DNA of 64,000 bases, from the NCBI GenBank assembly GCA_001596155.1, contig CP014771.1:1984001-2048000 (forward strand), read 5' to 3'. Below, piece by piece: positions 1-64,000 of the stretch (position 1 is its first letter; every line of letters starts with the position of its first letter). Under the pieces are notes generated by a model, which worked only from the letters and a program-made list of their open reading frames with translations, searched no databases and was not told the origin of the DNA. This DNA comes from Hymenobacter psoromatis. Lineage in GTDB: Bacteria; Bacteroidota; Bacteroidia; Cytophagales; Hymenobacteraceae. A program made the position numbers and the translations under genes.

Positions 1-147
1 CGGCGTAGGTGGCCGGGTATGAGGGGGGTAGGGCGAAATAAAAAACTGAAATTCTCCGGGCCGCAAAGTTGTTAGGCTGGTGGCTTTTCCGCCAAAAGCT
101 TGAGGGCTCCGGCAGGGGCTAGCCGGGCAGATGCCTGGGCCGGCAGG

Positions 148-155
148 TATCTTTG
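148..155 (+). promoter_or_regulatory. -7 promoter element of dnaX
   Basis: TATCTTTG matches the Bacteroidota -7 consensus TAnnTTTG and lies 13 bp before the chosen dnaX ATG, so the 5' leader would be very short. I see no convincing TTG (-33) at 19-21 bp upstream, so only the -7 half is supported. Confidence 0.5.
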
Positions 156-168
156 TACAGTATCGACT

Positions 169-2172
169 ATGGAAAATTTTGTTGTTTCGGCCCGCAAGTA
201 CCGTCCGGCCACGTTTCGGAGCGTGGTGGGGCAGCAGCACGTCACTACCACCCTGCAAAACGCCATTCAGAGCCAGCACTTAGCGCAGGCGTTTCTGTTT
301 TGCGGGCCGCGGGGCGTGGGCAAAACTACGTGTGCCCGCATCCTGGCCAAAACCATTAACTGCACCAACCTCACGCCCGAGGCGGAAGCCTGCGGCGTGT
401 GTACGTCGTGCGTAGCGTTTCAGGAAAACGCCTCCTTCAACGTGCACGAGCTGGACGCGGCGTCGAATAACTCGGTGGAGGACATTCGCTCGCTGGTGGA
501 GCAGGTGCGCTACGCGCCGCAGCAAGGTCGGTTCAAGATTTATATTATTGACGAGGTGCACATGCTCTCGAACGCGGCCTTCAACGCCTTTTTGAAGACG
601 CTGGAAGAACCGCCGAGCTACGCAATTTTTATCCTGGCCACCACCGAGCGCCACAAGATTATCCCCACCATCCTGTCGCGCTGCCAGATTTTTGACTTTA
701 ATCGTATTAAGGTCGAGGACATAAGGGGGCATTTGCGCTATGTAGCTAACAGCGAGCACGTAACGGCCGACGACGACGCGCTGCACCTGCTGGCCCAAAA
801 GGCCGACGGCGGCCTGCGCGACGCGCTCTCGATGTTTGACCAGCAGGTAACGTTTGCTGGCAACAACCTGACGTACAAGGAAGTAGTGCAGAACCTGCAC
901 ATTCTGGATTATGACTATTATTTCCGGCTGGTGGAGGCGCTGCTGGGCGAAAACCTGTCGGCTGCGCTGCTGCTGCTCGATTCGGTGATGCAGCAAGGGT
1001 TTGATTTACATAACTTTGTAGTGGGCACGGCCGAGCACCTGCGCGGGCTGCTGGTGTGCAAAGACCCCGTGACGGTGCAGCTGCTGGAGGTGTCGGAGGG
1101 CATTCGGCAGCAGTACGTGCGCCAGGCCCAGGCCGCGCCGCTGCCCTTTCTGCTCTCGGCCCTGAACCTGATGAGCCAGTGCGACCGCGAGTTCAAGCAG
1201 GCCAAAAACCAGCGCCTGCACGTGGAGCTGGCGCTCATGAAGCTGGCGTATCTCAATGGGGCCGTGCAGTTTGTGCGCGACCTCACCCCGGCCGGCAACC
1301 AAAGGTCAGCGCCAGCTAACGGCGAGGCTAAAAAAAAAACTAGCAGCTTAGCGGCGGCTCCTACCCCCCCCCTGCCCGCCCAAGCTGCGCCACCCGCCAC
1401 ACCCGTTGCGGAGCCCGAAACCAACGCTCCCGCCGACGGTCCCGAGCCGCTACCCGTCGAAAACGGCGTGCGGGAATTGCACCCTACCCCCAGCATTGAG
1501 CCCGAAGCCGCGGCACCCGTGACCGAGCGCCACCAGGTGCGCGACACGTTGCCGCACGTGGAAACCGGCCGACCCAGCATGCAGGGTCTGGAGCCCAATC
1601 ACCGGCCCACCGACGTGCCGCCCGGCCTCGTGGCCGAGCCGGCCGTCGCCCGCCCCGCCCCGGTCCCTACCCTCCCCAAGCTACCCAGCCTCGCTAGTCG
1701 CCTGCCTGGCCTGCGCGACGTGAGCGCGCCCACTGCCCCGGTTGCCCCAGCTCAGAAACCAGAAACCAGAACCCAGGAACCAGCCGCCCCGACCGGCCCG
1801 CTGCCGCCCATCGCGCCCGAGCTGCTGCAAGCCGTGTGGCAGCAGCTGGCCGACGAGCGCCGCGCCCAGGAAAAGATGAGCGACTATATGGTGCTGAACC
1901 GCGCCGTGGCGGCTGACGCGGGCCACGTTATTACCCTTATTGTGGACAATCCGGTGCAGGTGGTGCAGTTCAACGACTTTCGGGCCGAGTTTATGGCCGA
2001 GCTGCGGCGGCGCACCGGCCACCCCGGCCTCACGGTGCAAACCGAGGTGACCACCGCCGCGCCCACCGGCCGCAAGCTCTACACCTCGAATGACAAGTTT
2101 GCCTACCTGGCCGAAAAGTATCCGGCCTTGCAGGAAATGAAGCAGCGGCTGGGGCTGGATGCGGACTTTTAG
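169..2172 (+). CDS. dnaX: DNA polymerase III subunit gamma/tau
   Basis: Clamp-loader ATPase that loads the beta clamp during replication. The N-terminal AAA+ module is clear: Walker A GPRGVGKT at residues 46-53, zinc-module cysteines near 75, 78 and 81, Walker B region DEVH at 128-131, and FLKTLEEPP at 141-149. Residues about 390-560 form a Pro/Ala-rich linker, then a C-terminal tau-like region of about 110 residues. An in-frame start at 100 would add 23 residues, but ATG 169 gives the family N-terminus (ARKYRPATF) and sits just after a -7 promoter element. No frameshift hairpin for a short gamma form is obvious, although an A9 run occurs at about 1331. The linker carries a captured repeat at 1753-1782. 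Confidence 0.95.
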   Translation: MENFVVSARKYRPATFRSVVGQQHVTTTLQNAIQSQHLAQAFLFCGPRGVGKTTCARILAKTINCTNLTPEAEACGVCTSCVAFQENASFNVHELDAASNNSVEDIRSLVEQVRYAPQQGRFKIYIIDEVHMLSNAAFNAFLKTLEEPPSYAIFILATTERHKIIPTILSRCQIFDFNRIKVEDIRGHLRYVANSEHVTADDDALHLLAQKADGGLRDALSMFDQQVTFAGNNLTYKEVVQNLHILDYDYYFRLVEALLGENLSAALLLLDSVMQQGFDLHNFVVGTAEHLRGLLVCKDPVTVQLLEVSEGIRQQYVRQAQAAPLPFLLSALNLMSQCDREFKQAKNQRLHVELALMKLAYLNGAVQFVRDLTPAGNQRSAPANGEAKKKTSSLAAAPTPPLPAQAAPPATPVAEPETNAPADGPEPLPVENGVRELHPTPSIEPEAAAPVTERHQVRDTLPHVETGRPSMQGLEPNHRPTDVPPGLVAEPAVARPAPVPTLPKLPSLASRLPGLRDVSAPTAPVAPAQKPETRTQEPAAPTGPLPPIAPELLQAVWQQLADERRAQEKMSDYMVLNRAVAADAGHVITLIVDNPVQVVQFNDFRAEFMAELRRRTGHPGLTVQTEVTTAAPTGRKLYTSNDKFAYLAEKYPALQEMKQRLGLDADF

Positions 2173-2190
2173 GGAGGTAAGGAATTCGGG

Positions 2191-3750
2191 ATGAGGGATT
2201 TCAACAAAATAACCTGGAGTCAATTCCTCCTTTTTCCCTCCAAATACCTGCTTCTTTTAGTAGTAAGCTGCCGCCCTACCCCCCCGCCGCTGCGCGTAAG
2301 CTTTGTGGGCGACGTGTTGCTGGCCCGCGCCGTGCCCGCTGCCCTGGCCCGCGACAGCGCCGCCCTGCGCCGCACCACGCGGGCGCTGTGGGCCGGCAGC
2401 CGCTACGTGGTGGGTAATTTGGAATGCCCGTTTACCGATACCGCCCGGCCGGTGCGCAAACCGATTGTTTTTCGGGGTAACCCGCGCTGGGCGGGCTGGC
2501 TGCGAAGCCTGGGTTTTACGCACGTTTCGCTGGCGAATAACCACACTCTCGACCAGCATTTGCCCGGCTTGCGCGGCACAGCGCGGGCGCTGCGGGCCGC
2601 CCGGCTGGGAGCGCTGGGCTACCAGCCCGATTCGCTGGCCGGCTGCCTGCCCACCGTGCTGGGGCCGGATAGCAGCGTGGCCGTGTTTGCTTATTCGGCT
2701 TTAACGCAAAGAATACCCGGTGAGGGCTGCGTGTGCGGGCGCGACGCGGCGACGCTCTGCGAGCGGCTGGCGACGTACAAAACACTATTCCCGGAGCGGG
2801 CGGTGCTGGTGTATCTGCACTGGGGCACCGAGTATGCGGCGCGGCCCGACGCCGGGCAGCGGCAACTGGCGCACGACCTCATCGATGCGGGCGCGGCGGC
2901 CGTGGTGGGGGCGCACCCGCACGTGGTGCAGCCGGTGGAGTTCTACCGGGGCCGGCCCATTATCTACAGCCTGGGTAATTTTCTGTTTGACCAGCACGGC
3001 GGCAATACGGCGCTGGCGGCGCAGGTCGATTTCGACTTGGCGGGCGGGCGGGTAGCGGCTACTACCATCCGGCCTTTACAACTGGTCGGCGCGGTGCCGC
3101 GGGCGGCCGCTGCCGCTGCCCGCCAGGCACTTGCGCTGCGCCTGCTTCCGGCCGATGGCAGCACGCAACTCCCCGACCCGCAAGCCACTACCTGGCTCCT
3201 GCACGCCACCGCGCCGGCCACGGCGGCCGACTCACTACCCGCCTACCTCGTGCCGCATCTGGTATGGCGTGGCCCGGCCGGCCGCCGCTCGGCCGTGCGC
3301 CTGCGCTACCTGCCCCACTGGCGGCAGTACCAGTTGCTGGCCCAGACTGATGGCGAGGTGGACCGCCTGCCGCTGGGCTTCCCGATATACCGGCTGACGC
3401 TGGGCGACGTGGACAACGACGGGCAGCCCGACGTACTCATCGGGCCCGTGAAGCGCACGCCGCTCGATAGCGTGGTGCGGCGGCGCTTGTTCGTGTACGC
3501 CCTCGATAGTGCCGGGCGGTGGCGGCCCCGCTGGCGCGGCTCGCAGCTACTATTCAACATCGTTTATTTTAAAGCCATCCGGGAGCAGGGCCGCACCTTC
3601 GTGCAAACCATTGAGCAAGAGCCGGACAGCAGCTATTGCATAGGGCAGTATTACTGGCAGGGCTTTGGGCTGGTACTCGATAAGTTTGTGGCGCGGCGGC
3701 TGGGCCGGGCGGCGGCCTACCGGACGTTTGTGCGGTCGCAGGCTTGGTAG
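2191..3750 (+). CDS. CapA-family (PGA_cap) lipoprotein
   Basis: Similar to CapA/PgsA proteins of the calcineurin-like metallophosphoesterase type, first described in poly-gamma-glutamate capsule synthesis. Family motifs seen are GDVLLAR, NLECPFTD, NNHTLDQ, HWGTEY, GAHPHVVQP and SLGNFLFD (residues about 38-270). The N-terminus has a hydrophobic stretch ending in LLVVSC, a lipobox with Cys27, so an outer- or inner-membrane lipoprotein is likely. The C-terminal 200 residues are extra to the usual domain and contain GDVDNDGQPDVLIG, which resembles an FG-GAP/integrin-type calcium-binding blade. No capB/capC genes are nearby, so a capsule role is not supported by context. It starts 18 bp after dnaX and may be co-transcribed with it. 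Confidence 0.85.
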   Translation: MRDFNKITWSQFLLFPSKYLLLLVVSCRPTPPPLRVSFVGDVLLARAVPAALARDSAALRRTTRALWAGSRYVVGNLECPFTDTARPVRKPIVFRGNPRWAGWLRSLGFTHVSLANNHTLDQHLPGLRGTARALRAARLGALGYQPDSLAGCLPTVLGPDSSVAVFAYSALTQRIPGEGCVCGRDAATLCERLATYKTLFPERAVLVYLHWGTEYAARPDAGQRQLAHDLIDAGAAAVVGAHPHVVQPVEFYRGRPIIYSLGNFLFDQHGGNTALAAQVDFDLAGGRVAATTIRPLQLVGAVPRAAAAAARQALALRLLPADGSTQLPDPQATTWLLHATAPATAADSLPAYLVPHLVWRGPAGRRSAVRLRYLPHWRQYQLLAQTDGEVDRLPLGFPIYRLTLGDVDNDGQPDVLIGPVKRTPLDSVVRRRLFVYALDSAGRWRPRWRGSQLLFNIVYFKAIREQGRTFVQTIEQEPDSSYCIGQYYWQGFGLVLDKFVARRLGRAAAYRTFVRSQAW

Positions 3751-6552: not shown

Positions 6553-7479
6553 TTACAAAATCTGCCCCAGCCCAAACAGCACCGTGAACACGAGCGTGCT
6601 CAGGGCCATCTGCTTCAACAGGGGGTCGAGCCGCTGCGAATCCTGACGCGCCCACACCTGGTAGCCGTTGAAGGCGAACAGCGGCAGGGCCAGCACGAAC
6701 AGCCACCGCCAAGGCGAGGGCGAATTGGCATAAGTGAACGCCACGTAGAGCACCGCCGCGCCTACCCCCAGCAGCAGCAGCAGCCAGTGGTAGCGCCGGG
6801 CGTGGCGCGGCCCCAGCCGCACCGGCACCGTAATTTTACCGGCCAGCTTGTCCGACACGATATCGCGGATGTTGTTGACATTCAGCACCGCCGTGGCAAA
6901 ACAGCCCAGCGCGGCGGCGGGCAGCAGCACGTTGAAGGGCAGCGCGTGGGCCAGCGTATGCTCGTGCGAGTAAGCTTGCAGAAAGTACGTGCCGCACACG
7001 CCCACAATGCCGAAAAACAGGAACACCGACACGTCGCCCAGCCCCGCGTAGCCGTAGGGATTGCTGCCCGCCGTGTAGTTCACGGCCGCCCAGATAGCCG
7101 CCAGGCCCAGCACCAGAAACGCCAGCAGCACCCACGCGCCCGCCACGCCCAGCGCCACCAGCAGCAGCAGTAGTCCGCTCACGAACGCCGCCGCCCCGAA
7201 GCCCCACATGGCGCGCTTCATCTGCACCGGCGTGATGGCCCCGCTCTGCACCGCCCGCAATGGCCCCTGCCGATGCACGCTGTCGGCCCCGTTCATAGAG
7301 TCGCCGTAGTCGTTGGCCAGGTTGCTAAGTATCTGGAGTAGAATGGTCGTCACGGCCGCCAGCGCCACCACCGGGCCATTAAAATGCCCGGTCGCCTTCG
7401 CCAAAAAGCCACCCGTGAGGATGCTGGCCAAAGCGAGGGGTAGGGTGCGGGGACGAAACGCGGAAATCCAGGGCGACAT
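6553..7479 (-). CDS. menA: 1,4-dihydroxy-2-naphthoate polyprenyltransferase
   Basis: UbiA-superfamily membrane enzyme that attaches the polyprenyl tail to DHNA in menaquinone synthesis. The first Asp-rich motif is NLANDYGDSMNGADSV (residues about 53-68) and the second is NVNNIRDIVSDK near 190. The rest is a series of hydrophobic helices. ATG 7479 is preferred over the upstream start at 7551 because it gives the usual PWISAFRPRTLPLA N-terminus and avoids reading into the palindrome at 7505-7621. No other men genes are in the window. The 180 bp between its stop and the DUF3160 gene hold no gene I can see. Confidence 0.93.
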   Translation of the reverse strand: MSPWISAFRPRTLPLALASILTGGFLAKATGHFNGPVVALAAVTTILLQILSNLANDYGDSMNGADSVHRQGPLRAVQSGAITPVQMKRAMWGFGAAAFVSGLLLLLVALGVAGAWVLLAFLVLGLAAIWAAVNYTAGSNPYGYAGLGDVSVFLFFGIVGVCGTYFLQAYSHEHTLAHALPFNVLLPAAALGCFATAVLNVNNIRDIVSDKLAGKITVPVRLGPRHARRYHWLLLLLGVGAAVLYVAFTYANSPSPWRWLFVLALPLFAFNGYQVWARQDSQRLDPLLKQMALSTLVFTVLFGLGQIL

Positions 7480-7640: not shown

Positions 7641-8216
7641 CTACTTCGTGATGGCCGACACCAGCTCGGGGTCGGTGGGCTTGACTTTGGAGGGGTAGAA
7701 GGCTACTACGTGGCCGTTTTCATCAACCAGATACTTGCAAAAATTCCAGGTGGGTGCCTCGCTCACGGCCCCGTTCTTGGCCTTGTCGGCCAGAAACTTA
7801 TAGAGTGGCTGGGCATCGTCGCCCTTCACCGGGGCGGTGGAGAAAAGCGGGAAGGTCACGCCGTAGTTCTTCTCGCAAAACGAAGCAACTTCGGCATTCG
7901 AAGCCAGCTCCTGGTTGAAGCTGTTGCTGGGGAAGCCGAGCACGGTCACTTTGTTGCCGTATTTCTTCGACAATTCTTCCAGCTCCTTGTACTGCGGAGT
8001 GAAACCGCACTTCGAGGCGGTATTCACAATCAGGATTTTCTTGCCCTTGTACTTGCTCAGCTTCACGTCTTTACCGTCGATAGTCTTCACGGTGTAGTCG
8101 TACACGGTGCCGGGGGCGGCGGTGGCTTCGGTGGGGTGCATGGGGGTAGGGCGCGGGCTGGTGAAGGCCAGGCCGAGCGTGGCGGCGGCGGCCAGGGCGA
8201 AGAAAACGGGTTTCAT
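7641..8216 (-). CDS. Secreted glutathione peroxidase-family protein
   Basis: Thiol peroxidase that reduces hydrogen peroxide or lipid peroxides, probably with thioredoxin. Residues 1-20 form a signal peptide (MKPVFFALAAAATLGLAF), so it acts in the periplasm or as an envelope protein. Peroxidatic Cys70 lies in NTASKCGFTPQY, a likely resolving Cys114 in SFCEKNYG, and Trp157-Asn158 in the WNF motif. The position that holds the catalytic Gln in many members (NQF) is NSF here (Ser99). Length 191 is normal once the signal is removed. Its start faces the transglycosylase gene's 3' end, 73 bp away. Confidence 0.9.
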   Translation of the reverse strand: MKPVFFALAAAATLGLAFTSPRPTPMHPTEATAAPGTVYDYTVKTIDGKDVKLSKYKGKKILIVNTASKCGFTPQYKELEELSKKYGNKVTVLGFPSNSFNQELASNAEVASFCEKNYGVTFPLFSTAPVKGDDAQPLYKFLADKAKNGAVSEAPTWNFCKYLVDENGHVVAFYPSKVKPTDPELVSAITK

Positions 8217-10590: not shown

Positions 10591-10623
10591 CGTCCGCAAA
10601 CCCAGTTCCCGCGTCCCTACCCC

Positions 10624-11955
10624 ATGCTCACTGCCCTTTCGCCGCTCGACGGCCGCTACCAGCGCCAAACGGCTCCCCTCGGCCCGTATTTTTCGGAGCT
10701 GGCACTCATGCGCTACCGCGTGCGGGTCGAAGTGGAGTACTTTATTGCCCTCTGCGAATTGCCGCTGCCCCAGCTAGTGGCCGTGCCGGCCAGCGCATTT
10801 CCGGCTCTGCGCGGCCTGTATGAGCAGTTTGGCGAAGCGGAGGCCCAGGCCATTAAAACCCACGAAGCCATCACCAACCACGACGTCAAAGCCGTGGAAT
10901 ATTACCTGCGCGACGAGTTTAAGAAGCTGAACCTGACTGATTTTTTGGAGTTTATTCACTTCGGCCTGACTTCGCAGGATGTCAACAACACCGCCATTCC
11001 GCTCAGCCTGAAAGAGGCCATGACCGATGTGCTGCTACCCCGCTTCAAGCAGGTGAAGGCGCAGCTGGCCGAGCTGGCCGCCGGCTGGGCGGCAGTGCCC
11101 ATGCTGGCGCGCACCCACGGCCAGCCCGCTTCGCCTACCCGCCTGGGTAAGGAGCTGGAAGTATTCGTGGCGCGGCTCGATGGCCAGCTGGCGCTGCTCG
11201 GCCAAGTGCCCTACGCGGCTAAGTTTGGCGGCGCGACGGGCGGCTTCAACGCGCACTTTGCCGCCTACCCCCACCTCGACTGGCATGCCTTCGCTGAGCG
11301 CTTTGTGAACGATACGCTGGGCCTGCACCGCACCTTCCCGACCACCCAGATTGAGCCCTACGACAACCTGGCGGCCTTCTGCGATGGCTGGAAGCGCCTG
11401 AATACCATCTTGCTGGACCTGTGCCGCGACGTGTGGCAGTATATCTCGCTGGGCTATTTCAAGCAGACGCTCAAGGCCGGCGAAGTGGGCTCGTCAGCCA
11501 TGCCGCACAAGGTGAACCCGATTGATTTTGAGAATGCCGAGGGCAACCTGGGCGTGGCCAACGCACTGCTGGAACACTTCGCGGCCAAGCTGCCCATCTC
11601 GCGGCTCCAGCGCGACCTCACCGATTCCACGGTGCTACGCAACCTGGGTGTGCCGCTGGGCCATCTGCTCATCGCGCTCAGCGCCATTGCGCGCGGCCTC
11701 GGCAAGCTGGCTTTGGATGAAAGCGCCCTGGCCCGTGACCTCGACGCCAACTGGGCCGTGCTGGCCGAGCCCATCCAAACTATCCTGCGCCGCGAAAACT
11801 ACCCCGACCCCTACAACGCCCTCAAGCAGCTCACGCGCACCGGCACGGCTATTTCGGCCGCCACCATCGCGGGCTTCGTGGAAGAGCTGGACGTGCCCGA
11901 AAGCGTGAAAGCCGAGCTGCGCGCCCTCACGCCCGCCAGCTACGTAGGCCGCTGA
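10624..11955 (+). CDS. purB: Adenylosuccinate lyase
   Basis: Catalyses two beta-eliminations of fumarate in purine synthesis, from SAICAR and from adenylosuccinate. The fumarase/aspartase signature GSSAMPHKVNP lies at residues 289-299. Other conserved segments are SPLDGRY at the N-terminus, THEAITNHDVKAVEYYL (79-95), FGLTSQDVNNTA (113-124) and ARTHGQPASPT. The start at 10624 is chosen because it gives this N-terminus; the frame is open upstream to 10072 but that part is antisense to the transglycosylase gene. A CCTACCCC motif lies immediately before the ATG. The partner purA is 15 kb away on the other strand. Confidence 0.95.
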   Translation: MLTALSPLDGRYQRQTAPLGPYFSELALMRYRVRVEVEYFIALCELPLPQLVAVPASAFPALRGLYEQFGEAEAQAIKTHEAITNHDVKAVEYYLRDEFKKLNLTDFLEFIHFGLTSQDVNNTAIPLSLKEAMTDVLLPRFKQVKAQLAELAAGWAAVPMLARTHGQPASPTRLGKELEVFVARLDGQLALLGQVPYAAKFGGATGGFNAHFAAYPHLDWHAFAERFVNDTLGLHRTFPTTQIEPYDNLAAFCDGWKRLNTILLDLCRDVWQYISLGYFKQTLKAGEVGSSAMPHKVNPIDFENAEGNLGVANALLEHFAAKLPISRLQRDLTDSTVLRNLGVPLGHLLIALSAIARGLGKLALDESALARDLDANWAVLAEPIQTILRRENYPDPYNALKQLTRTGTAISAATIAGFVEELDVPESVKAELRALTPASYVGR

Positions 11956-12712: not shown

Positions 12713-13143
12713 GGCATTCCCTACCCCCCCCTTGCCCGCTCAGGCTGGCGTATTCTGCCACACTGTCTTCACAACGGGAATCCAATTAAATAACCAAAAA
12801 ATACCTACTTTTAAGTATTGCCCACCAGCACCATGTAGGTGACCTTTGCTAGCATCAACTCCAAATATTAGCCGGCCTTCGCAGGCAAAACCTGGCTATT
12901 TCAGGCTTTAAAGCTCTATTTTACCGTGGCTCTTAGCCCGGCCTGCCACTTGCGTGGCATAGGTTTTTCTTTAACTCACATTATTCTCCGCCGCCTATCG
13001 ATTCTCACTCTACTCCTTTGGGTGGCTACCCCACTCTGAAAACAAACTGCTAATTGCCCGCCGGCCTTGGTTGTTTCCCCTGCTTGAACGGGAGAGATGG
13101 CCGGGGCCGGCTATTTTTGCGGCTTGTCCTTATTATCTGCCTA
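12713..13143. other. 431-bp intergenic region
   Basis: No ORF with coding character is seen between the LuxR gene and the GT9 gene. The stretch is more AT-rich than its surroundings and contains a CCTACCCC motif at 12720 and a CTACCCC at 13026. No canonical TAnnTTTG element was found. The start of the GT9 gene could lie up to 90 bp inside it. Confidence 0.5.
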
Positions 13144-34238: not shown

Positions 34239-34362
34239 TGGTGGCTCTTGGTGGTTGGCGGGGAGTTTGCAGAAACTTTTGGGGGCGCGGGGCGCTTTGC
34301 AACTGCTACGCCTCACTTGGTTTCCTTGGGGGGGTAGGGGCGCGATTGCTACCCTGCCAACT

Positions 34363-43011: not shown

Positions 43012-43140
43012 GGGGAGGGGGTAGGGTTGGCAGCCGCAGAGCAAACGTAGCACTTCCCTCTCAATTTGCCCCGCCGCCGCCAAGCAGGCCCGGCCAAGCG
43101 CCCCCGGCGGCCGGTGTTTAAGTAGTCAGTCAAAAGTAAT

Positions 43141-50664: not shown

Positions 50665-50939
50665 AATCACGGATTAAACGGGTTTGAGCGGATTTCACGG
50701 ATTTTGTGGACGGCGCTGGTGGCTTCGTTGTTAGCTTGGCCAGAAAGGGGCGTATTACCAAAGAGCGCCGGACCATTCGAAAATTTATTATTTCCATCCT
50801 ACCCTACCCCAGCAAGCCGAAGTCTGAAGGCCGAAGCTAATTCAACCAACAACAAAGCCAACCACTCACCCAAATTACTCGCCACCAGCGCCGTCCACAA
50901 AATCCGTGAAATCCGCTCAAATCCGTTTAATCCGTGATT
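50665..50939. repeat. 275-bp foldback (MITE-like) element
   Basis: Terminal inverted repeats of 58 bp, 50665-50722 and 50882-50939, with a single mismatch (GGG versus GGA after TTAAAC). The arms contain the ATCCGTGAAATCCGCTCAAA type string built of repeats of ATCCG. About 159 bp lie between and contain a further partly inverted pair (GGCTTCGTTGTTAG near the left arm, and ACAACAAAGCC near the right). The right end supplies the last codons and stop of fdhD. No transposase is inside; target-site duplications were not recognised. Confidence 0.88.
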
Positions 50940-51796
50940 CGGTGAGCGTGCGTGTAAATGTTAAACCGCTCTTGCCGCACGAACCCTAAAAGCGTGAGGC
51001 CAAACTCCTCGGCCGCTTCCACGGCCAGGCTGCTGGGCGCACCCACCGCCGCCAAAATCGCTACCCCCGCCACGGCGGCCTTCTGCACCAGCTCGAAGCT
51101 GGCCCGGCCGCTGAGCAGCACAATCTGCTGGTTCAAAGGTAGTTGCCCGGCCAGCAGCACTGCCCCCACTACCTTGTCGAACGCGTTGTGGCGGCCCACG
51201 TCTTCGCGCAGCAGCAGCAGCTCGCCCGCCGCCGAAAACAGCGCCGTGGCGTGCAGGCCACCGGTTTGCTCAAACACGCGCTGGGCCGCCCGCTGCCGCT
51301 CGGGCAAGGAGTGGATGAGGGCGGCCGATACGCGCGGGCTGTCGGCCGGCGGGGGGGTAGGGAACGAGCTGGCGCGCACCGCCTCGATGCTGGTTTTGCC
51401 GCACACCCCGCAGCTCGACGTGGTGTAGAAATGCCGCTCCAGGCGGTTGAGGGCCACGGCCACGCCGGGGGCTAGCTCGGCGCGTATCACGTTGCCGCGC
51501 TCCTTGGGTCGGCGCGGGTCGGCGCGGTGCTCAATCGATTCTATATCAGCCGCTTGCTGTACCAGGCCTTCGCTCAGCAGGAAGCCCGCCACCAGCTCGG
51601 CATCGTGGCCGGGCGTGCGCATGGTCACGGCCAGCGTGTGCGTGAGGCGGTGGTCGGCGGGGCCATAGCCCAGGCTGATTTCGAGCGGTGCCTCCACGGC
51701 CAGCAAATCAGTCGCCGCCGTAACGACCTCGCCCACCACGCGCTGCACGGTGGTGCGCTCAGCGCTAGCAAGGGACGGCGGCTGGGGGGTAGGCAT
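50927..51796 (-). CDS. fdhD: Formate dehydrogenase accessory sulfurtransferase
   Basis: Transfers sulfur from a cysteine desulfurase to the molybdenum cofactor before its insertion in formate dehydrogenase. The essential pair Cys129/Cys132 is in SSCGVCGKTS; other conserved parts are RTPGHDAELVAGFLLSEGL and LLREDVGRHNAFDKVVG, and GRASFELVQKAAVAG. Length 289 is normal. The last three residues (Ile-Thr-Asp) and the stop are encoded inside the foldback element, so the natural 3' end was altered slightly by the repeat. Confidence 0.95.
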   Translation of the reverse strand: MPTPQPPSLASAERTTVQRVVGEVVTAATDLLAVEAPLEISLGYGPADHRLTHTLAVTMRTPGHDAELVAGFLLSEGLVQQAADIESIEHRADPRRPKERGNVIRAELAPGVAVALNRLERHFYTTSSCGVCGKTSIEAVRASSFPTPPPADSPRVSAALIHSLPERQRAAQRVFEQTGGLHATALFSAAGELLLLREDVGRHNAFDKVVGAVLLAGQLPLNQQIVLLSGRASFELVQKAAVAGVAILAAVGAPSSLAVEAAEEFGLTLLGFVRQERFNIYTHAHRITD

Positions 51797-53609: not shown

Positions 53610-54605
53610 CTTTTTCCGCAGCAAAGATACAAAAAACGGCACCCCCAGCAGGGCCGTGACCAGGCCCACCGGCAGGCCAGCGGGGGGGTAGAGCAGCCGC
53701 GCCAGCAGGTCGCAGGCCAGCAGAAAGCCGCCACCCAGCACCGCGCAAAACGCCAGATTAGCCCGGCCGGCCGTGCCCAGCAGTCCCCGCGTGAGGTGCG
53801 GCACCACCAGCCCCACGAAACCAATTGGCCCGCACAACGCCACTACCCCCCCCGTGAGGGCCGCCACCAGCCCCAGCAGCAGCCACCGCAGCCGCGCCAC
53901 CGGCAGGCCCAGCGCCTGCGCCCGCTCCTCGCCCAGCAGCAGCAGGTTCAGGTCTTTTTGGAGAAAAACCAGCAGCCCCAGGCTGGCCACCAGCACGGCG
54001 GCCGGGTAGCTCAGCACCACCCAGCTGGCCCGCTCAAACGACCCGAACGCCCAGAAAACCACCGTCTGCAAATTGCCCTGGTCGGCCTTCAAAAATGTAA
54101 TGAGCGAGCCCGCCGCCGCCGCCAACGCGCCCACCCCTACCCCCCCCAGCAGCAGCGACGCCGGCAGCACCCGCCCCCGCCGCGAGCCAATGGCCACCAC
54201 CAGCACCGTGGCCAGCAGCCCGCCCGCCAGGGCCGCCAGCGGCGGCAAATACAGCCCACCCAGCGTGAGCGCCGGAAAAAACAGGTAGGTAATAATCGCC
54301 CCCAGCGACGCCCCCGACGCCGTGCCCAACAAATACGGGTCGGCCAGCGGGTTCGTCACCAGCGTCTGCAGCAGGTAGCCGCTCAGCGCCAGGCTCGCGC
54401 CCGCCAGCCACGCCAGCAGCAGGCGCGGCAGCCGCAGCTCCACCAGCACCAGCTGGGCCGGGTCGGTGGGGTCGTAGTGCCGCAGCGTGCGCAGAATAAA
54501 CGCGTAGCTGGTGACGTACGAGCCCACGCGCAGCCCCAAAACCAGCAGCAGCAGCGTGAGCAGCGTGCCCGCGAGCAGCCAGCGGCCGGGGTGCGTAGCG
54601 GGCAT
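53601..54605 (-). CDS. FecCD-family iron-siderophore/B12 ABC transporter permease
   Basis: A 334-residue protein with about ten membrane helices. Motifs: LRLPRLLLAWLAGASLALSG (start of the family core), NPLADPYLLGTASGASLGA, GAALVGVLG-like ALAGGLLAT, and the cytoplasmic loop near GFVGLVVPHLTRGLLG that contacts the ATPase. It would translocate ferric siderophore, haem or cobalamin. Starts 3 bp after the binding-protein gene stop. No ATPase gene of this system is in the window. Its final KKSF and stop lie in the palindrome at 53543-53609. Confidence 0.9.
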   Translation of the reverse strand: MPATHPGRWLLAGTLLTLLLLVLGLRVGSYVTSYAFILRTLRHYDPTDPAQLVLVELRLPRLLLAWLAGASLALSGYLLQTLVTNPLADPYLLGTASGASLGAIITYLFFPALTLGGLYLPPLAALAGGLLATVLVVAIGSRRGRVLPASLLLGGVGVGALAAAAGSLITFLKADQGNLQTVVFWAFGSFERASWVVLSYPAAVLVASLGLLVFLQKDLNLLLLGEERAQALGLPVARLRWLLLGLVAALTGGVVALCGPIGFVGLVVPHLTRGLLGTAGRANLAFCAVLGGGFLLACDLLARLLYPPAGLPVGLVTALLGVPFFVSLLRKKSF

Positions 54606-54608
54606 AGC

Positions 54609-55498
54609 TTAGTTCGTTAAAAGAGCGCGCAACTCACGCACCGCTTCCACCACGCGGGGGCTCGGGCGCTGGAGCAAATTAGGCGTGGTGGCGAATACGC
54701 GGCGGTTCTGGTAAGCGCGCGTGCGCCGCAACTCGGGGTTATTCTTAAAAAACGTGCTGTCGAGCTTCCCAAACCGGCCGCCGAGCAATACATCCGGGTT
54801 CAGCTTCAAAATATACTCCCGCGTGAGGGCCGGAAAGGGCTGCGGGAAGGTATCGCGCACCGCATTTTGCCCGCCCGCCAGCCGAATCTCGTCCGTGAAC
54901 AGCGTGTTCTGACCGTAGGCATAAATCGGGTCGGCCGAGGCCAGGGCCAGCACCTGGGGCCGGCGGGGGGGGGGGTAGGGCCGGCTGCCAACTGGTCGAG
55001 CTGCGCTTGCAGCGAATCGGTGAGGTGGCGGGCCTGCGCCGGGCGGCCCAGCAGCCGGCCCAAGTCGTTGAGGCCGCGCAACACGTCGGCCACCCGCCGG
55101 TATTTCTGGTAATAGACCGGGATGCCGAGCTGCCCTAGGCGCGCCGCCGCGTCGGGCGGCGTCATGCCTTCTACCGTAAAAACTACGTCGGGCCGCAGGG
55201 CCACGAGTCGCTCCAAATCGAGGGGGTAGGAGCTCACCAGCGGCTTGCGCAGCGCGGCGGCCGGGTAGTCGTCGGCTTGGGTGCGGGCAATGATAGTGGC
55301 CGTATCGGCCACGGCATACAGCATTTCGGTGAGGCTGGGGGCCAGTGCCAGCACCCGGCGCGGGTGGGCGGGCAGGGTCAGCTCCCGGCCCAGGTCGTCG
55401 CGCACTTGCACGGTAGCCAGGGGGGTAGCCGGTTTATTTTCGGACTGGCAAGCCACCAAACCGGCCAGCAATAGACTACTAATAAGCCAAACGCGCAT
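54609..55498 (-). pseudogene. Metal-chelate ABC transporter binding lipoprotein, frameshifted at a G11 run
   Basis: Start ATG 55498 gives a signal with lipobox (LLLAGLVACQSEN), then a cluster-type helical-backbone binding domain: PRRVLALAPSLTEMLYAV, RPDVVFTVEGM. The frame is broken at the run of 11 G at 54965-54975 (poly-C in the coding strand). Downstream another frame reads VLALASADPIYAYGQN and continues to LRALLTN. An insertion of one base (12 C) or removal of two would join them. It may be a sequencing error or a phase-variable contingency locus. It should bind siderophore, haem or B12 for the permease downstream. Confidence 0.85.
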
Positions 55499-55627: not shown

Positions 55628-56596
55628 ATGATAGTCGTCACCGGCGCCGCCGGCTTCATCGCCAGCTGCCTTGTCTCCCGCCTCAACGCCGCCAATTTCA
55701 ACGATTTGGTGGTGGTTGACAACTTCGCCATCGAGAAAAAGCTACCCAATATATTGGGCAAAAAGTTGCGCGAGTACGTGGACCGCGAGGAGTTTTTCGA
55801 CTGGCTCGCTGCCCACCACGAGCAGGTGGAGTTCGTTTTCCACCTCGGTGCCCGCACCGACACGGCCGAGCAGGACCCCGCCGTTTTCGACGTGCTCAAC
55901 CTCCACTACAGCCAGCAGATGTGGCTGGCCTGCGTGCGCTACAACCTGCCGCTCGTGTACGCCAGCAGCGGTGCCACCTACGGCGACGGTCGCCTCGGCT
56001 ACTCCGACCAGGACGACGCCCTACCCCTCCACCTGCGCCCGCTCAACCCCTACGGCGACTCGAAAAACGACTTCGACAAGTGGGCCCTGGCGCAGGAAGA
56101 AAAGCCCTATTTCTGGGCTGGCCTCAAGTTTTTCAACGTTTACGGCCCCAACGAATACCACAAGGGTCGCATGGCCTCGGTCATCCTGCACGCCTTCCGC
56201 CAGATTCGCGAAAACGGCAGCATGCAGCTCTTCCGCTCGCACAACCCCGAATACGTGGATGGTGGCCAGATGCGCGACTTCATTTATGTGAAAGACGTGG
56301 TGGAAGTGTGTTACTTCCTGCTGCACCACCGCACACACTCAGGCCTCTACAACCTCGGCACCGGCCAGGCCCGCACCTTCCAGGACCTCGCCCTCAACAC
56401 CTTCGCCGCAATGGGCCAGCCCGCCGACATCCGCTTCCGCGACACCCCCGAGGACATCCGCGACACCTACCAGTACTTCACCGAAGCCGACATGCGCAAG
56501 CTGCGCAGCATTGGTTACGACCTGCCATTCGCGTCGCTGGAAGAAGGCATCCGCGATTACGTGCAGGGATACTTGGTGCCAAACACGTATTATTAA
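55628..56596 (+). CDS. hldD: ADP-L-glycero-D-manno-heptose-6-epimerase
   Basis: Short-chain dehydrogenase-type epimerase that makes the heptose donor for lipopolysaccharide core. NAD(P)-binding GAAGFIAS at 6-13, catalytic YGDSK (Tyr-xxx-Lys) near 141-145, AGLKFFNVYGPNEYHKGRM (binding of ADP-heptose) near 164-182, and NLGTGQARTF near 245. Length 322 is normal. A second, diverged copy of the last 40 codons lies at 57312-57435 with a toxin-antitoxin pair between. Confidence 0.95.
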   Translation: MIVVTGAAGFIASCLVSRLNAANFNDLVVVDNFAIEKKLPNILGKKLREYVDREEFFDWLAAHHEQVEFVFHLGARTDTAEQDPAVFDVLNLHYSQQMWLACVRYNLPLVYASSGATYGDGRLGYSDQDDALPLHLRPLNPYGDSKNDFDKWALAQEEKPYFWAGLKFFNVYGPNEYHKGRMASVILHAFRQIRENGSMQLFRSHNPEYVDGGQMRDFIYVKDVVEVCYFLLHHRTHSGLYNLGTGQARTFQDLALNTFAAMGQPADIRFRDTPEDIRDTYQYFTEADMRKLRSIGYDLPFASLEEGIRDYVQGYLVPNTYY

Positions 56597-58042: not shown

Positions 58043-59737
58043 CTATTTAGTCCCCGCCGACTTCGTCGCGCTGGCGGCCCTACCCCCTGGTTTTAGCAGG
58101 GCGGCGTAGCGGTTAGGGTCGTTGAGCACGGCCACGGCGGCCTGGATATTGGGGTCGTCGTCGAAGCCTGCTTCGGTGCGGCCCTTCTCGTAGTAGTAGC
58201 GCGAGGCGATTTCTTCCTCCAGCAGCTCCCGGATTTCGGGTTTGAAGCGCTGCAAGTCGTTGGTTTTGTTGGCGGCTACTTTGCGCTTGATGGCGTCCAA
58301 CTCGGGCTTCACGTCTTCGTAGTGCTTCTCTTCCTTCACCTTTTTGGTGAGGTCGGTGAGCACACGCTCGGCGTCGGTGCTGTAAGCCATGCTCTTGCCT
58401 TGCAGATACGTAACAAACTTCTGATAATCAGCATCCGACAGCTTGAATTCGCGGGCCGGCGCGATGGTAGCGTGCTCGGCGCGGTAGCGGGTAGCGTAGT
58501 CGAAGAGGTAGCTCTTCTGGATGAGCACGCGGGTGATGTCGGCGATTTCGCGGTCCTGTATATCAATGTCTGGGGCCACGCCGCCACCATCGTACACAAT
58601 GCGGCCGGCAGCAGTTTTGAAGGCTGTGCGCAGCGAATCCGGGAATTTGCTCAGCGCGCCATCGTCAGCGCGGTGTGAGTAGTCGATTTCCTGAATGCAG
58701 CGTCCGCTCGGAATGTAATACTTGGCAGTCGTCACCTTCAGCTGCGAGTTATAGCTCAGCGGCCGGGTAGCCTGCACGAGGCCCTTGCCGAAGGTGCGCT
58801 CGCCCACGAGCACGGCGCGGTCGTAGTCCTGTAACACGCCCGACACGATTTCCGACGCCGACGCCGAGCGGTTGCTCGTGATGATGGCAATCGGTATCTG
58901 GGTATCGAGCGGCACGTCAAGGGCCTTATACGTCTTGTTCCACTCCGTCACTTTACCCTTAGTGCTCACCACGTCGAGGCCCTTGTCCACGAACAAGTTA
59001 GAGATATTCACGGCCTCGTTGAGCAACCCGCCGGGGTTGTCGCGAATATCAAAAACCAGCTTTTTCGCGCCTTTCTCCTTGAGCTTTATTACGGCGTTTC
59101 GCACTTCGCGGCCGGCATCCATCGTGAAGCCGCCCAATTGAAAATACCCAATGTCGTTGGTCAGCATGCCGTAGTAGGGCACGTTGTCCACCTGAATTTT
59201 ATCGCGGGTAATATCGATTTGGACCGGCTTATCCTGGCCGTAGCGCGTCACCATCAGCTTCGCCACCGAGCTGGCCTGGCCCTTGAGCAGCTTACTGATA
59301 TCGGCGTTCGTCTTTTTATCAACGTTGATGTTGTTGATAGTCAGGATTTCATCGCCAGGTAGCAAGCCGGCCTTTTGGGCGGGGTAACCCTCGTAGGCGC
59401 TCTGCACCACCGTTTTGCCGTTGCGCTTCACCACTACCGCCCCAATGCCGCCGTACTGGCCGGTCGTGAGGGTGCGGAAGTCCTCAATATCGTCCTCGGG
59501 GATGTAGTTAGTGTAGGGGTCCAGCGATTTCAGCATCCCGTCGATGCCCGTTTTCACCAGCTTGCCGGGCGTAATCTCGTCCACGTAGTACGTGTTCACT
59601 TCCTTAAAGAGGGTAGCGAAGATGTCGAGGTTCTTGGCAATCTCAAAATATCGCTCGCTATCGGACGCGGCCCGAAAGCTAACAAGGCCGAGCGCGCCCA
59701 GACCCAGGGTAGCGAGTAATTTTTTACGGTTTGTCAT
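58043..59737 (-). CDS. S41 carboxy-terminal processing peptidase
   Basis: A 564-residue periplasmic serine protease of the CtpA/Prc group. N-terminal hydrophobic stretch 9-23 (signal). Residues about 60-85 (VKTGIDGMLKSLDPYTNYIP) form the entry helix, then a PDZ domain near 100-175 (GIGAVVVKRNGKTVV... GLLPGDEIL), then the catalytic core with Ser about 293 in SNRSASASEIVSG and Lys about 318 in GERTFGKGLVQ. The C-terminal 170 residues are helical. Upstream minus-strand TATCTTTC is close to the -7 box. Confidence 0.92.
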   Translation of the reverse strand: MTNRKKLLATLGLGALGLVSFRAASDSERYFEIAKNLDIFATLFKEVNTYYVDEITPGKLVKTGIDGMLKSLDPYTNYIPEDDIEDFRTLTTGQYGGIGAVVVKRNGKTVVQSAYEGYPAQKAGLLPGDEILTINNINVDKKTNADISKLLKGQASSVAKLMVTRYGQDKPVQIDITRDKIQVDNVPYYGMLTNDIGYFQLGGFTMDAGREVRNAVIKLKEKGAKKLVFDIRDNPGGLLNEAVNISNLFVDKGLDVVSTKGKVTEWNKTYKALDVPLDTQIPIAIITSNRSASASEIVSGVLQDYDRAVLVGERTFGKGLVQATRPLSYNSQLKVTTAKYYIPSGRCIQEIDYSHRADDGALSKFPDSLRTAFKTAAGRIVYDGGGVAPDIDIQDREIADITRVLIQKSYLFDYATRYRAEHATIAPAREFKLSDADYQKFVTYLQGKSMAYSTDAERVLTDLTKKVKEEKHYEDVKPELDAIKRKVAANKTNDLQRFKPEIRELLEEEIASRYYYEKGRTEAGFDDDPNIQAAVAVLNDPNRYAALLKPGGRAASATKSAGTK

Positions 59738-60622: not shown

Positions 60623-60775
60623 GGGCTGAACGATAATGTAAAACGGAGTGGCACTCCGTTGCCAGCAAGCCGTAAAACAGGGGGCAGGCTGCCCTACCCC
60701 CCCTGCCTTGCCGCAACCTGCGCCCAAACGGCGCGCCGCGCCATTTTACTTTGCCAGTCGCCTTCAATTTCGTCC

Positions 60776-62512
60776 ATGACCTACTACCACGTTTCCTTCG
60801 AAAATCCGCTCACGTTTTACCTTCAGATTCAGCTTATGGTGGAAGTGCCGGCCGAGGCTGACGGCCCGCTGGCCTTACAGCTGCCTGCCTGGCGGCCAGG
60901 TCGTTATGAACTGCAAAATTTCGCGCAAAAAATCCAGCGCGTCGAAATCAGCGATGCCGAGACGGACGTGCCCCTACCCTACCGCAAAGTGACCAAGGAC
61001 CGCTGGGAGGTGCCCGGCGCGGCGGGCCGCAGCGTGCGCGTGCGCTACAATTTCTACGCCCACCAGATGGATGCCGGCGGCTCGTGGCTAGATGCCACGC
61101 AGCTCTACCTCAACCCCGTGCAGGCCCTGATGTATGCCGAAGGCCAGCAGGATGCGCCCTGCCAGCTCACCCTGGACCTGCCCGCCGACTGGCGCCTGGC
61201 CTGCGGCCTGCCCCAGACGCTGCCCAACACGCTGCAAGCCAGCAATTTTGACCAGCTGGCCGACTCGCCGCTCATTGCCAGCCCCAGCATTCAGCACCAG
61301 CAATACGAGGCGGGCGGCGTGCCCTTTCACGTGTGGGCGCAGGGCGAGGAAGCTTTGCCAAACTGGCCAAGGCTATTGGCCGATTTCAAGGCGTTTTCGG
61401 AGGAACAGATTCAGCTGTTCGGCAGCTTTCCAGTGGCTGACTATCACTTTCTTAACCAATTTTTGCCCTACAAGCACTACCACGGCGTGGAGCACCACAA
61501 TTCGACGGTGATTGTGCTGGGTCCGGCCGAGGCGCTGATGCACGAGGCGCTGTACAAAGAGCTGCTGGGCGTGAGCTGCCACGAGCTATTTCATACCTGG
61601 AACATCAAGGCCATTCGCCCGGCCGAAATGCAGCCCTACGACTACGCCCGCGAAAATTATTTTCGCACCTGCTACATCGCCGAGGGCATCACGACCTACT
61701 ACGGCGAATATTTGCTGGCGCGCAGCCGCGTGCGCACGCCGGCCCAGTATTTTGAGGAACTGAACGGCGTGCTGCGCAAGCACTACGACGACGTAGGCGG
61801 CCAGAACCTGAGCCTGGCTGATGCCAGCATGGACCTCTGGCTCGACGGCTACCGGCCCGGCGTGCCCGACCGCAAGGTGAGCGTCTATCACAAGGGCGCG
61901 CTGGCCGCGCTGCTGCTCGACCTCACCATCCGGCAGCTGCACGGCCACGACCGCAGCCTCGACGACGTGATGCGCCGCCTCTACGACGACTTTGGCAAAA
62001 CCGGCATCGGTTACACTGATGAGGACTATGCCCGCATTGTGAGCGAAGTAGCCGGCCGCAAAATGCAGGTGTATTTTGATAAATTTATCAACGGTACCGC
62101 GCCCTTGCAGGAGCCGCTTGACAAGGCGCTGCACACTGTCGGTTGCCAGTTGGTGGCAACTGAAAACGCTTCGGCTTCGGAGGGTATTTTCGGCTTTCGC
62201 ACGGTGGTGAAAAACGAGCGCACGGAGGTAACTTACATATGGCCCGGCTCGCCGGCCGCCGCCGCGCTCACCGTCGATGATGAAATCGTGGCCATCAACG
62301 GCCGCCGCGTCGATATGAATCTGCAAAGCCTGCTCAGCATCGACGCGCCGCACTACGAGGTAGCCGTGTTTCGGCAGAATCGACTACTGGTAGTGGAGCT
62401 GGCTGCGCAGCGAGGGGTAGGGTTTGGCCCGCGCTACGCGGTGGAGAAGCTGGCGGAGGCCGACGAGGCGCAGCGGGCGGGGTTTCAGAAGTGGATGGGC
62501 TGGGCATTTTAA
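60776..62512 (+). CDS. M61-family metallopeptidase (glycyl aminopeptidase-like)
   Basis: A 578-residue zinc peptidase. N-terminal beta domain with LQLPAWRPGRYELQNFA, catalytic HELFHTW with His269, Glu270, His273, followed by the conserved NIKAIRPAEM and the third-ligand segment CYIAEGITTYYGEY (Glu). C-terminal PDZ-like domain from about 490 (TYIWPGSPAAAALTVDDEI). No signal peptide, so cytoplasmic. ATG 60776 is chosen because the upstream frame is repeat and promoter sequence. Confidence 0.9.
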   Translation: MTYYHVSFENPLTFYLQIQLMVEVPAEADGPLALQLPAWRPGRYELQNFAQKIQRVEISDAETDVPLPYRKVTKDRWEVPGAAGRSVRVRYNFYAHQMDAGGSWLDATQLYLNPVQALMYAEGQQDAPCQLTLDLPADWRLACGLPQTLPNTLQASNFDQLADSPLIASPSIQHQQYEAGGVPFHVWAQGEEALPNWPRLLADFKAFSEEQIQLFGSFPVADYHFLNQFLPYKHYHGVEHHNSTVIVLGPAEALMHEALYKELLGVSCHELFHTWNIKAIRPAEMQPYDYARENYFRTCYIAEGITTYYGEYLLARSRVRTPAQYFEELNGVLRKHYDDVGGQNLSLADASMDLWLDGYRPGVPDRKVSVYHKGALAALLLDLTIRQLHGHDRSLDDVMRRLYDDFGKTGIGYTDEDYARIVSEVAGRKMQVYFDKFINGTAPLQEPLDKALHTVGCQLVATENASASEGIFGFRTVVKNERTEVTYIWPGSPAAAALTVDDEIVAINGRRVDMNLQSLLSIDAPHYEVAVFRQNRLLVVELAAQRGVGFGPRYAVEKLAEADEAQRAGFQKWMGWAF

Positions 62513-63331: not shown

Positions 63332-63373
63332 AAACGCCCCGCTTCATCGGTCTGTCGATGAAGCGGGGCGTTT
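63332..63373. terminator. Bidirectional terminator hairpin
   Basis: 18-bp perfect stem AAACGCCCCGCTTCATCG over CGATGAAGCGGGGCGTTT with loop GTCTGT, between convergent genes. Confidence 0.88.
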
Positions 63374-63391
63374 CTTTGAAAGGTGTGGCCC

Positions 63392-63640
63392 TTAATGCTT
63401 GGCGTCGCCGCCTTTGCCCACTTTGCCTTTGTTGACTGACATTGGCTTGTTGCCCTGCGGGTTGCTGCGAATTTTGTTGACCCCGCTGCCGGCGTCGTTG
63501 CCATCGGTAGTGTTGCCGTGACCTGATACCTGATTATCGTTCGGGTTTTGCACCTGGGTGCTTTTTTTCTTGGTATTCTCGAACGGGTCAACGGACGTCT
63601 TTTTGTCCTTTGGGTCGGAGTTTTTATGAGCTAATGACAT
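63392..63640 (-). CDS. Small hydrophilic protein of unknown function
   Basis: An 82-residue Lys/Asn/Asp/Gly-rich protein (MSLAHKNSDPKDKKTSVDPF and NKPMSVNKGKVGKGGDAKH) likely to be intrinsically disordered. It has no signal or membrane segment. ATG 63640 is chosen because its upstream frame is an overlap with the GGGGGTAGGG motif. I do not recognise the family; similar small hydrophilic proteins are common in Hymenobacter-like genomes as stress proteins, which is only a guess. Confidence 0.55.
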   Translation of the reverse strand: MSLAHKNSDPKDKKTSVDPFENTKKKSTQVQNPNDNQVSGHGNTTDGNDAGSGVNKIRSNPQGNKPMSVNKGKVGKGGDAKH

Positions 63641-63731
63641 GGCGGGAAAAGGATTAGTGAGCGTGTCCTTAGTGTACCCGCCAACGAGCCGCAGGGTTGC
63701 CCCTACCCCCCGTTTTCTTGCCGAAGCCGGC

Positions 63732-64000
63732 TTACTCGGCCAGCTTCTCCAGCGCCGCCCGAAACGCGGGCGTGTCGTAGTCGGCCATGCCATCGTGGCG
63801 GTCGGCCAGCCGCCCGGCGGGCGTGAGGATTACCGTGGACGGAATGGAGGGCGAATCGAAGGGCGCGGGCAGCGGCGCGGCCGGAAAAAACACCGGCAGT
63901 GTGTAACCCTTGCGCTTCAATAAGGCCCGCGCTTTATTTGGATTCTCATCGAGCGAGATGAGCACGAAGGCGACTTTGGCGGTGTCCGTTTTTTGGTAGA
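63732..64000 (-). CDS. Thioredoxin-fold protein (TlpA/ResA-like), cut by window edge
   Basis: C-terminal end of a larger gene entering from beyond 64000. The visible part reads DTAKVAFVLISLDENPNKAR and SIPSTVILTPAGRLADRHDG, then a helix to LEKLAE; this matches the last beta strands and helix of a TlpA-type redoxin (cis-Pro in IPSTV). The CxxC active site would lie outside the window. The start and any signal peptide cannot be seen. Confidence 0.75.
   Translation of the reverse strand, partial: YQKTDTAKVAFVLISLDENPNKARALLKRKGYTLPVFFPAAPLPAPFDSPSIPSTVILTPAGRLADRHDGMADYDTPAFRAALEKLAE

Follow-up and report, generated by a model that had tools for sequence, protein, structure and literature searches.

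Why does a 64-kb window of the Hymenobacter psoromatis genome (the whole stretch analysed here: 64,000 nucleotides of contig CP014771.1, positions 1,984,001 to 2,048,000) hold so many copies of a single eight-base word, GGGGTAGG? The word occurs 57 times in the window, against a mean of 2.07 and a maximum of 6 in shuffled sequence, and the shorter GGGGTAG with its complement occurs 79 times against a mean of 7.62 in 100 dinucleotide-preserving shuffles; the first-pass annotation of this DNA, counting by eye, had put the latter at about 70. In an order-2 Markov model limited to the window, GGGGGTAG and GGGGTAGG are the two most over-represented 8-mers. The G+C content, given in that annotation as about 62 percent, measures 59.2 percent. 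Its description of the motif otherwise holds: the word is not palindromic, copies stand in both orientations within and between genes, each of the 13 coordinates it quoted has a copy within a few bases, and the claimed extension into G/C runs of 6 to 11 is seen in 23 window copies whose 5′ run is at least 6, the longest being 11.

Nor is the excess limited to the window, since the complete genome (G000 in what follows; other G numbers are further searched genomes, C numbers contigs and L numbers loci) carries 4810 copies, 2460 forward and 2350 reverse, in 5,451,254 bases, as against 128 (65 and 63) of the same word read backward. On the main contig (C3, 5.24 Mb) the density is about 0.90 per kb, nearly equal on the two strands and fairly even, falling below 0.45 per kb in 2 of 41 sampled loci; contig C1 (200 kb) has 80 copies, or 0.40 per kb. 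We suggest, with a probability of about 0.42, that the word is made by a strand-neutral drive, through a DNA-binding step coupled to recombination, and that some of its copies are then filtered by a system resembling FtsK and its FtsK-orienting polar sequences (KOPS).

The anatomy of the motif was examined in a 464-kb sample of G000, where the word consists of two G runs separated by TA. The 5′ run can be as long as 11, and when it measures 5 to 8 the 3′ run most often or second most often has three bases; G runs without an adjoining TAG are far less extended. The 10-mer GGGGGTAGGG is found 218 times where 0.24 are expected, an excess of roughly 900-fold, and its one-off forms at the T and the A reach 0.9 to 4.7 times expectation. 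One-off forms at position +4 are enriched 113-fold for A, 172-fold for C and 9.5-fold for T, and those at the G before TA give figures that derive from five copies or fewer. Counting from the T of TA in G000 (n = 539), there is also an upstream element, with T at −19 in 42 percent of copies (z 13.3), G at −17 in 51 percent (z 10.3) and G at −16 in 43 percent (z 6.5). This element accompanies strong cores and is seen in all three classes of copies, those between genes (n = 279) and those in sense (172) or antisense (526) orientation. On word-rich contigs it recurs unchanged in G034 (n = 252) and as a variant with C at −20 in G014 (n = 247); the samples from C1 to C5 of G055 and C1 to C5 of G053 hold too few copies to derive a motif. 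Taken as a whole, the motif is bipartite and spans about 25 bp, GGGGTAGG(G) forming its core and the upstream element its weaker part.

Within called genes there are 314 copies versus 21.8 (standard deviation 3.7) after synonymous-codon shuffling, 231 of them antisense and 83 sense, and the reading frame that would give an in-frame TAG is empty. The word stands at 0.89 per kb inside genes, at 2.14 per kb within 100 bp upstream of starts and at 2.28 per kb within 60 bp after stops; because the genes found by the simple caller make up 76 percent of the first sample, the intergenic class includes missed genes and the rRNA operon. Spacing is near random, with a coefficient of variation of 1.11 over 419 gaps. 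Codons overlapping a copy encode an amino acid different from that of word-less relatives in 31 of 131 cases, versus 1419 of 9712 elsewhere, overlapping alignments being counted separately. At orthologous sites in other species the copy is replaced by variants with at least one substitution, mostly ungapped (the gapped cases among non-identical sites number 4 in G034 and 8 in G137), and to judge from these alignments copies evidently arise by base substitution, within and between genes. Between genomes rich in the word (carriers), its sites are kept in aligned stretches at 38/51 versus 46/105 for permuted words of the same letters in G034, 36/60 versus 47/131 in G137 and 14/23 versus 11/48 in G014. 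In non-carriers the word is present at 1/24 sites in G047 (permuted 8/44) and 0/11 in G020 (permuted 1/22). A second control set (GGGGCAGG and similar words) was kept at 16/35 sites in G034, 12/38 in G137, 4/17 in G014, 8/16 in G047 and 0/4 in G020.

More than 1000 copies of GGGGTAGG are found in 10 of 81 Hymenobacter genomes, namely 9 of the 61 in the first set and, among 20 further ones, only G137 with 4591; counts in the remaining 71 do not exceed 536, and none of 77 genomes from five other genera of the family passes 1000 (maximum 299). The nearest searched genome to G000 is G034, whose tree locus matches that of H. sp. UV11 exactly; H. ginkgonis is a further species with GGGGTAGG. Sister species carry other words. 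The palindromic GGCTAGCC, the word of H. sp. CA2-7, stands at 2079 sites in G040, 2170 in G047 and 3011 in G088, while no more than 322 were counted in any of the remaining 98 of 101 genomes. There are 34 copies of GGGGCCCC in a 60-kb sample of G012, where 3.8 are expected, and 17 in 17.9 kb from H. nivis (1.5 expected); CCCTAGGG has 12 copies in 16.9 kb from H. polaris (0.3 expected). Most of the named loci surveyed, 58 in number and 7 to 21 kb long, have no dominant word of comparable strength; in the search for relatives' loci, 80 of 182 confirmed matches were kept. On a one-gene tree, which has weak or open forks at several places and does not include G137, G053 or G055, species with different words are interleaved, a pattern suggestive of several swaps or losses of words in Hymenobacter. 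We also observed a possible further word, TGACGTCA, with 9 copies in 57 kb of G053 (L070 to L074) versus 0.5 expected; GCCCCCCA is one of the leading words of L149, L150 and L151, three loci from the H. roseosalivarius / H. qilianensis clade. The species with GGGGCCCC, G012, has two adjacent C5 methyltransferase genes (PF00145) at C1 1024088-1027275.

The word is scarce on several contigs of the carriers. G137 has 2 copies in 20 kb on each of C2 and C3 versus 25 on C1; in G014, C3 to C5 carry 0, 1 and 1 versus 19 and 15 on C1 and C2; and in G034, C2 and C5 carry 2 and 5 versus 16 to 21 on C1, C3 and C4. Five sampled contigs of G055 have 0 to 3 copies per 20 kb, though the genome total is 2816. 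A small contig is not always word-poor, C2 of G014 being 94 kb long and word-rich. Judging from their size, the word-poor contigs may be plasmids; contamination is also possible. The starts of C3 to C5 of G014 (L062, L063 and L064, on contigs of 37 to 41 kb), nearly without GGGGTAGG, contain GCAATTGC at 7 to 9 per 20 kb, and may be plasmids bearing another host's word, or contamination.

By analogy, the main rival to a drive would be the precedent of the cyanobacterial highly iterated palindromes (HIP). A methyltransferase with methylation-directed repair, or some other modification-linked process, would create and protect the word, and words would follow the resident enzyme. The closest genomic parallel to our case is indeed HIP1 and the alternate HIPs, GC-rich words near one per kilobase, one taking the place of another from species to species, with a candidate methyltransferase, HIP1 itself being an octamer whose origin is, in the part of the source consulted, still the subject of models (PMC4390886). 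The window word differs in being non-palindromic and bipartite and in belonging to another phylum. The first-pass annotation, noting the lack of a palindrome, had set the motif apart from HIP1; this is correct for GGGGTAGG itself, and the contrast is nevertheless overdrawn, because sister species carry palindromic words, such as GGCTAGCC, at similar density, and they alone in this set share that property with the HIPs. What lowers the standing of the HIP-type explanation is that, of three methyltransferase families, not one is shared by every carrier tested. In a search of 20 genomes, G137 not included, PF01555 was found in none of the carriers G034, G028 (82 percent complete), G053, G059 and G060; PF00145 was absent from G014, G028, G055, G026 and G059, and PF02384 from G014 and G026, so that G014 and G034 have none of the three in common. 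A shared methyltransferase was rejected on this basis for PF01555, PF00145 and PF02384, each absent from some carriers, PF02086, PF07669 and others not having been searched; the annotation's proposal of a modification target is likewise unsupported by the three families tested, within that same limit. Carriers might use different families. An element 16 to 20 bp upstream is also not expected of a methyltransferase site, and on balance we regard a HIP-type origin as unlikely, though it deserves more weight than any of the other rivals to a drive.

An abundant nucleoid or chromosome-organising protein could alternatively bind the word some 5000 times per chromosome, with selection keeping the sites for packaging. 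The even density along C3, the bipartite motif of about 25 bp and the scarcity on several plasmid-sized contigs are what such a protein might produce, yet words differ between close relatives, which would be unusual for a core nucleoid protein, and spacing is near random; we consider this improbable.

Orientation along the chromosome bears on the two remaining functional proposals. Polarity is given below as copies running from the origin (ori) to the terminus (ter) over copies running the opposite way, with the origin inferred from the orientation of 16S genes in G000, G137 and G026, in the last of these ahead of counting; L153 to L174, from outside Hymenobacter, were left out of the analysis. 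The motif skew of G000 shows a single rise and a single fall around the chromosome, with a range never reached in 20,000 permutations of locus order; in G137 the range was reached with a frequency of 0.0005 for GGGTAGG and 0.0077 for GGGGTAGG. GGGTAGGG points from ori to ter at 393/227 in G000, 171/95 in G137 and 106/35 in G026 (670/357 pooled). GGGGTAGG[ACT] is unpolarised, at 137/133 in G000 and 73/66 in G137 (Fisher p 0.0008 and 0.036 against GGGGTAGGG), and in G026 GGGTAGG[ACT] stands at 103/91 versus the figure just given for GGGTAGGG (p = 4e-5). Pooled over the three genomes, GGGTAGGGG gives 223/59, GGGTAGGAG 50/16, GGGTAGGG[ACT] 447/298 and GGGTAGGAA 41/32; GGGTAGG[C/T], at 265/289, has no replichore polarity. 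Polarity is independent of the upstream element and of the 5′ run, on both of which abundance depends. On these figures, whatever generates the word appears to be strand-neutral, and copies continuing as RG (R, a purine) appear to be acted on by a second reader, two layers in all.

A scan of 4424 8-mers for polarity places GGTAGGGG and GGGTAGGG at the top of the z ranking. The other seven words shown belong to an array of clustered regularly interspaced short palindromic repeats (CRISPR) in G137, at L250, which was kept in the scan and fills much of the top list; L008, with the first CRISPR repeat, was left out. The array in L008 (9938-18545, about 789.9-798.5 kb of C3 in G000) consists of 133 exact 25-base repeats spaced at 62 to 67, and L250 has 86 copies of a related repeat at 12175-17703.

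The choice of origin matters here. In G000 dnaA lies at 875 kb of C3, near a turning point of the cumulative motif skew, and it was rejected as an origin marker; the origin was placed by 16S orientation because one at dnaA would put 16S genes against replication (3 of 3 in G000, 2 of 2 in G137 and 1 of 2 in G026). The dnaA gene (875008-876504 of C3 in G000; found also in G012, G020, G026 and G137) appears to lie far from the origin that the 16S genes imply. Moving from data-chosen arms to the 16S-derived origin changes the polarity of GGGTAGGG in G000 from 0.67 to 0.63. With a free best split in G137 the motif reaches 0.61 to 0.62, which control words match (GGGTTGG 0.67, n = 70; GGGGTGG 0.66, n = 80; GGGGCGG 0.64, n = 195; GGGCAGG 0.62, n = 167), and for this reason only the fixed-origin comparison counts there. 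Other G-rich words lean slightly in G026 (G4 not followed by TAG 861/722, GGGCAGG 52/40). In 55 non-carrier loci from the same neighbourhood GGGTAGGRG stands at 28/0 on the putative leading strand; we did not count this as evidence, because the loci are orthologous and contain no 16S gene, the leading strand is assumed, and nearly all G-rich words lean alike (GGTGGGG 74 percent, GGGTAGG[C/T] 84 percent).

Chi sites are G-rich, non-palindromic octamers, and the window word shares these properties. It could be proposed as the regulatory site of an enzyme of the RecBCD/AddAB type, and the ori-to-ter lean of GGGTAGGG would suit that role. The annotation had raised a Chi-like or chromosome-organising signal with replichore bias, which is borne out for copies spelled GGGTAGGG or GGGTAGGAG and fails for those spelled GGGTAGG[C/T]; because the latter are unpolarised, the word as a whole is unlike Chi or an architecture-imparting sequence. 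It is also patchy within one genus, most congeners being without comparable enrichment, and has an upstream element 16 to 20 bp away that Chi would not lead one to expect, so we think a Chi site very improbable.

Much the same, with if anything slightly less to be said for it, applies to the view that KOPS or another architecture-imparting sequence (AIMS) accounts for everything seen here. The KOPS consensus is GGGNAGGG (PMC2680272, in the part consulted), which GGGTAGGG fits, in the same orientation in three genomes; with the 16S-inferred origin it is this subset alone that both contains GGGNAGGG and runs from ori to ter. GGGTAGGRG copies resemble KOPS and AIMS as described in the portions consulted (PMC2680272, PMC5993296) in lying ori to ter on the leading strand, with an FtsK gamma domain present. 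They differ in that the polarised subset stands beside unpolarised copies, those ending in C or T, that are also greatly over-represented, that no clear gradient rises toward ter, and that other forms of GGGNAGGG are inconsistent (GGGCAGGG 85/86, GGGAAGGG 18/20 and GGGGAGGG 31/11, pooled). The gamma domain of FtsK is above cut-off in 21 of 21 genomes, shows a 62-residue alignment with the FtsK chains of known structure 2j5o and 2ve8/2ve9, and is nearly identical in G000, G137, G047, G020 and G005, which differ in word. As the determinant of the word it was rejected, being nearly invariant across genomes with different words or none. FtsK is, by sequence, the obvious candidate for the second reader of the GGGTAGGRG copies.

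Least probable of all is the mutational process that the annotation had also listed, by slippage in G runs or a context-dependent mutator, for which the variable 5′ run of up to 11 speaks and against which stand the much shorter G runs where TAG is missing, the ordered upstream element, the steep fall from about 900-fold for GGGGGTAGGG to at most 4.7-fold for its T and A one-offs, and the several different, mostly ungapped substitutions that build the word and its better retention than control words between carriers, because of which a simple mutational process is unlikely.

Our best guess, by analogy with uptake words, remains a drive coupled to DNA uptake or recombination. Sequence-specific DNA binding coupled to homologous recombination would favour alleles that bear the word; the coupling would most likely be biased uptake or processing of DNA from relatives, and the word would accumulate by molecular drive, as is thought for DNA uptake sequences. 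If the recognising factor changed, the old word would decay and a new one grow. In a second layer, GGGTAGGRG copies would fit a KOPS-like FtsK site and hence be depleted in the non-permissive orientation, FtsK being the presumed agent; FtsK gamma would then be expected to bind GGGTAGGRG and not GGGTAGGC. The drive reading resembles uptake words because of the core with outlying positions, the strand neutrality, the gain by substitution in tolerant sites, the scarcity on some contigs and the species-specific words. Like the DNA uptake and uptake signal sequences (DUS/USS) of Neisseriaceae and Pasteurellaceae, as set out in the part of the source consulted (PMC1939737), GGGGTAGG is a hyper-abundant short word at about one per kilobase, with a non-palindromic core and weaker outlying positions in G000, G034 and G014, and with tolerance of coding sequence; GGGTAGG[C/T] copies are unoriented in the same way, yet GGGTAGGGG copies are not. 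Riemerella columbina, also of the Bacteroidota, prefers its own DNA in transformation, according to the consulted part of PMC7965970.

Several observations weigh against this interpretation. The k-mer table for R. columbina, in that same part of PMC7965970, is made up entirely of words rich in A and T, with none that clearly stands out as an uptake word. PF00437, the ATPase of type IV pili and type II secretion systems, is above cut-off in 0 of 21 Hymenobacter genomes, three of which have matches below it; as a positive control it was found in 13 of 14 control genomes, and for this reason a machine of the Neisseria or Haemophilus type, with its pilus-type uptake ATPase, looks absent. The palindromic words of the sister species are unlike any uptake sequence known to us. 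A brief look at the literature found nothing on natural transformation of Hymenobacter, and a shallow look at the open-access literature found no report of an over-represented word in the genus. The upstream element is not universal: in G137 (n = 37) T at −19 and G at −16 have z of 3.3 to 3.4, no stronger than two unrelated positions, and G026 and G059 pooled (n = 223) have the word without it. As to the second layer, the polarity of G000 in bins from ter to ori is 0.70, 0.68, 0.73 and 0.61 (with data-derived arm ends), no clear rise toward ter, and the ori-to-ter direction depends on 16S orientation, an origin of G000 at dnaA reversing its sign. What these results leave as the driver is a putative DNA-recognising factor.

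A bolder version of the drive, which we put forward tentatively as somewhat doubtful, is a self-recognition system independent of pili and of the tested methyltransferases, in which a DNA-recognition factor would bring a single word in each lineage up to thousands of copies, switch among a few related words and set DNA-exchange groups inside the genus, while FtsK would prune mimics of its loading sites. The related words of that scheme would be the direct GGG-TA-GGG and the inverted GGC-TA-GCC and CCC-TA-GGG.

Individual copies of GGGGTAGG in the window can be placed as follows. As the annotation noted, some lie just before start codons. One at 10616..10623 (minus strand) is directly 5′ of the in-frame ATG (10624) of purB, whose product matches the Pfam families ASL_C and Lyase_1, and one at 43018..43025 (plus) is just 5′ of the in-frame ATG (43011, minus strand) of a histidine kinase. 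The copy at 12720..12727 (minus) falls just past a LuxR-type gene, and those at 33391..33398 (minus) and 34331..34338 (plus) fall between listed open reading frames. Compared at orthologous sites were 14796..14803 and 15755..15762 on the plus strand and 13755..13762, 13952..13959, 13971..13978, 15546..15553, 17779..17786 and 19240..19247 on the minus strand. The remaining plus-strand copies are at 25..32, 7437..7444, 8143..8150, 27196..27203, 29980..29987, 30166..30173, 31625..31632, 35556..35563, 35898..35905, 36447..36454, 40382..40389, 42227..42234, 43366..43373, 43449..43456, 43943..43950, 45498..45505, 50551..50558, 51354..51361, 51786..51793, 54972..54979, 55223..55230 and 62414..62421. 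On the minus strand the others are at 1360..1367, 1483..1490, 2275..2282, 6761..6768, 11264..11271, 28939..28946, 32198..32205, 33874..33881, 37803..37810, 40051..40058, 43996..44003, 44591..44598, 44831..44838, 45122..45129, 45621..45628, 46624..46631, 50803..50810, 54136..54143, 56020..56027, 58079..58086, 60693..60700 and 63702..63709.

Six-base palindromes, in the 464-kb sample of G000, are strongly avoided (GGCGCC, CCCGGG, CTCGAG, GTCGAC and others); GGCGCC occurs 106 times against about 755 expected and CCCGGG 8 times against about 222, which suggests past restriction pressure.

Hyper-iterated words are known from few groups, among them cyanobacterial HIP1 and the uptake sequences of Neisseria and Haemophilus. 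A single genus within which close relatives have different words, some direct and some palindromic, and many species have none that was seen, is a natural experiment, and setting gene content against word across its many sequenced species could reveal the recognising factor. The two-layer result, in which an abundant word appears to have been partly captured by a second chromosome-reading system, means that the existence of such a word is separable from the orientation of some of its copies.

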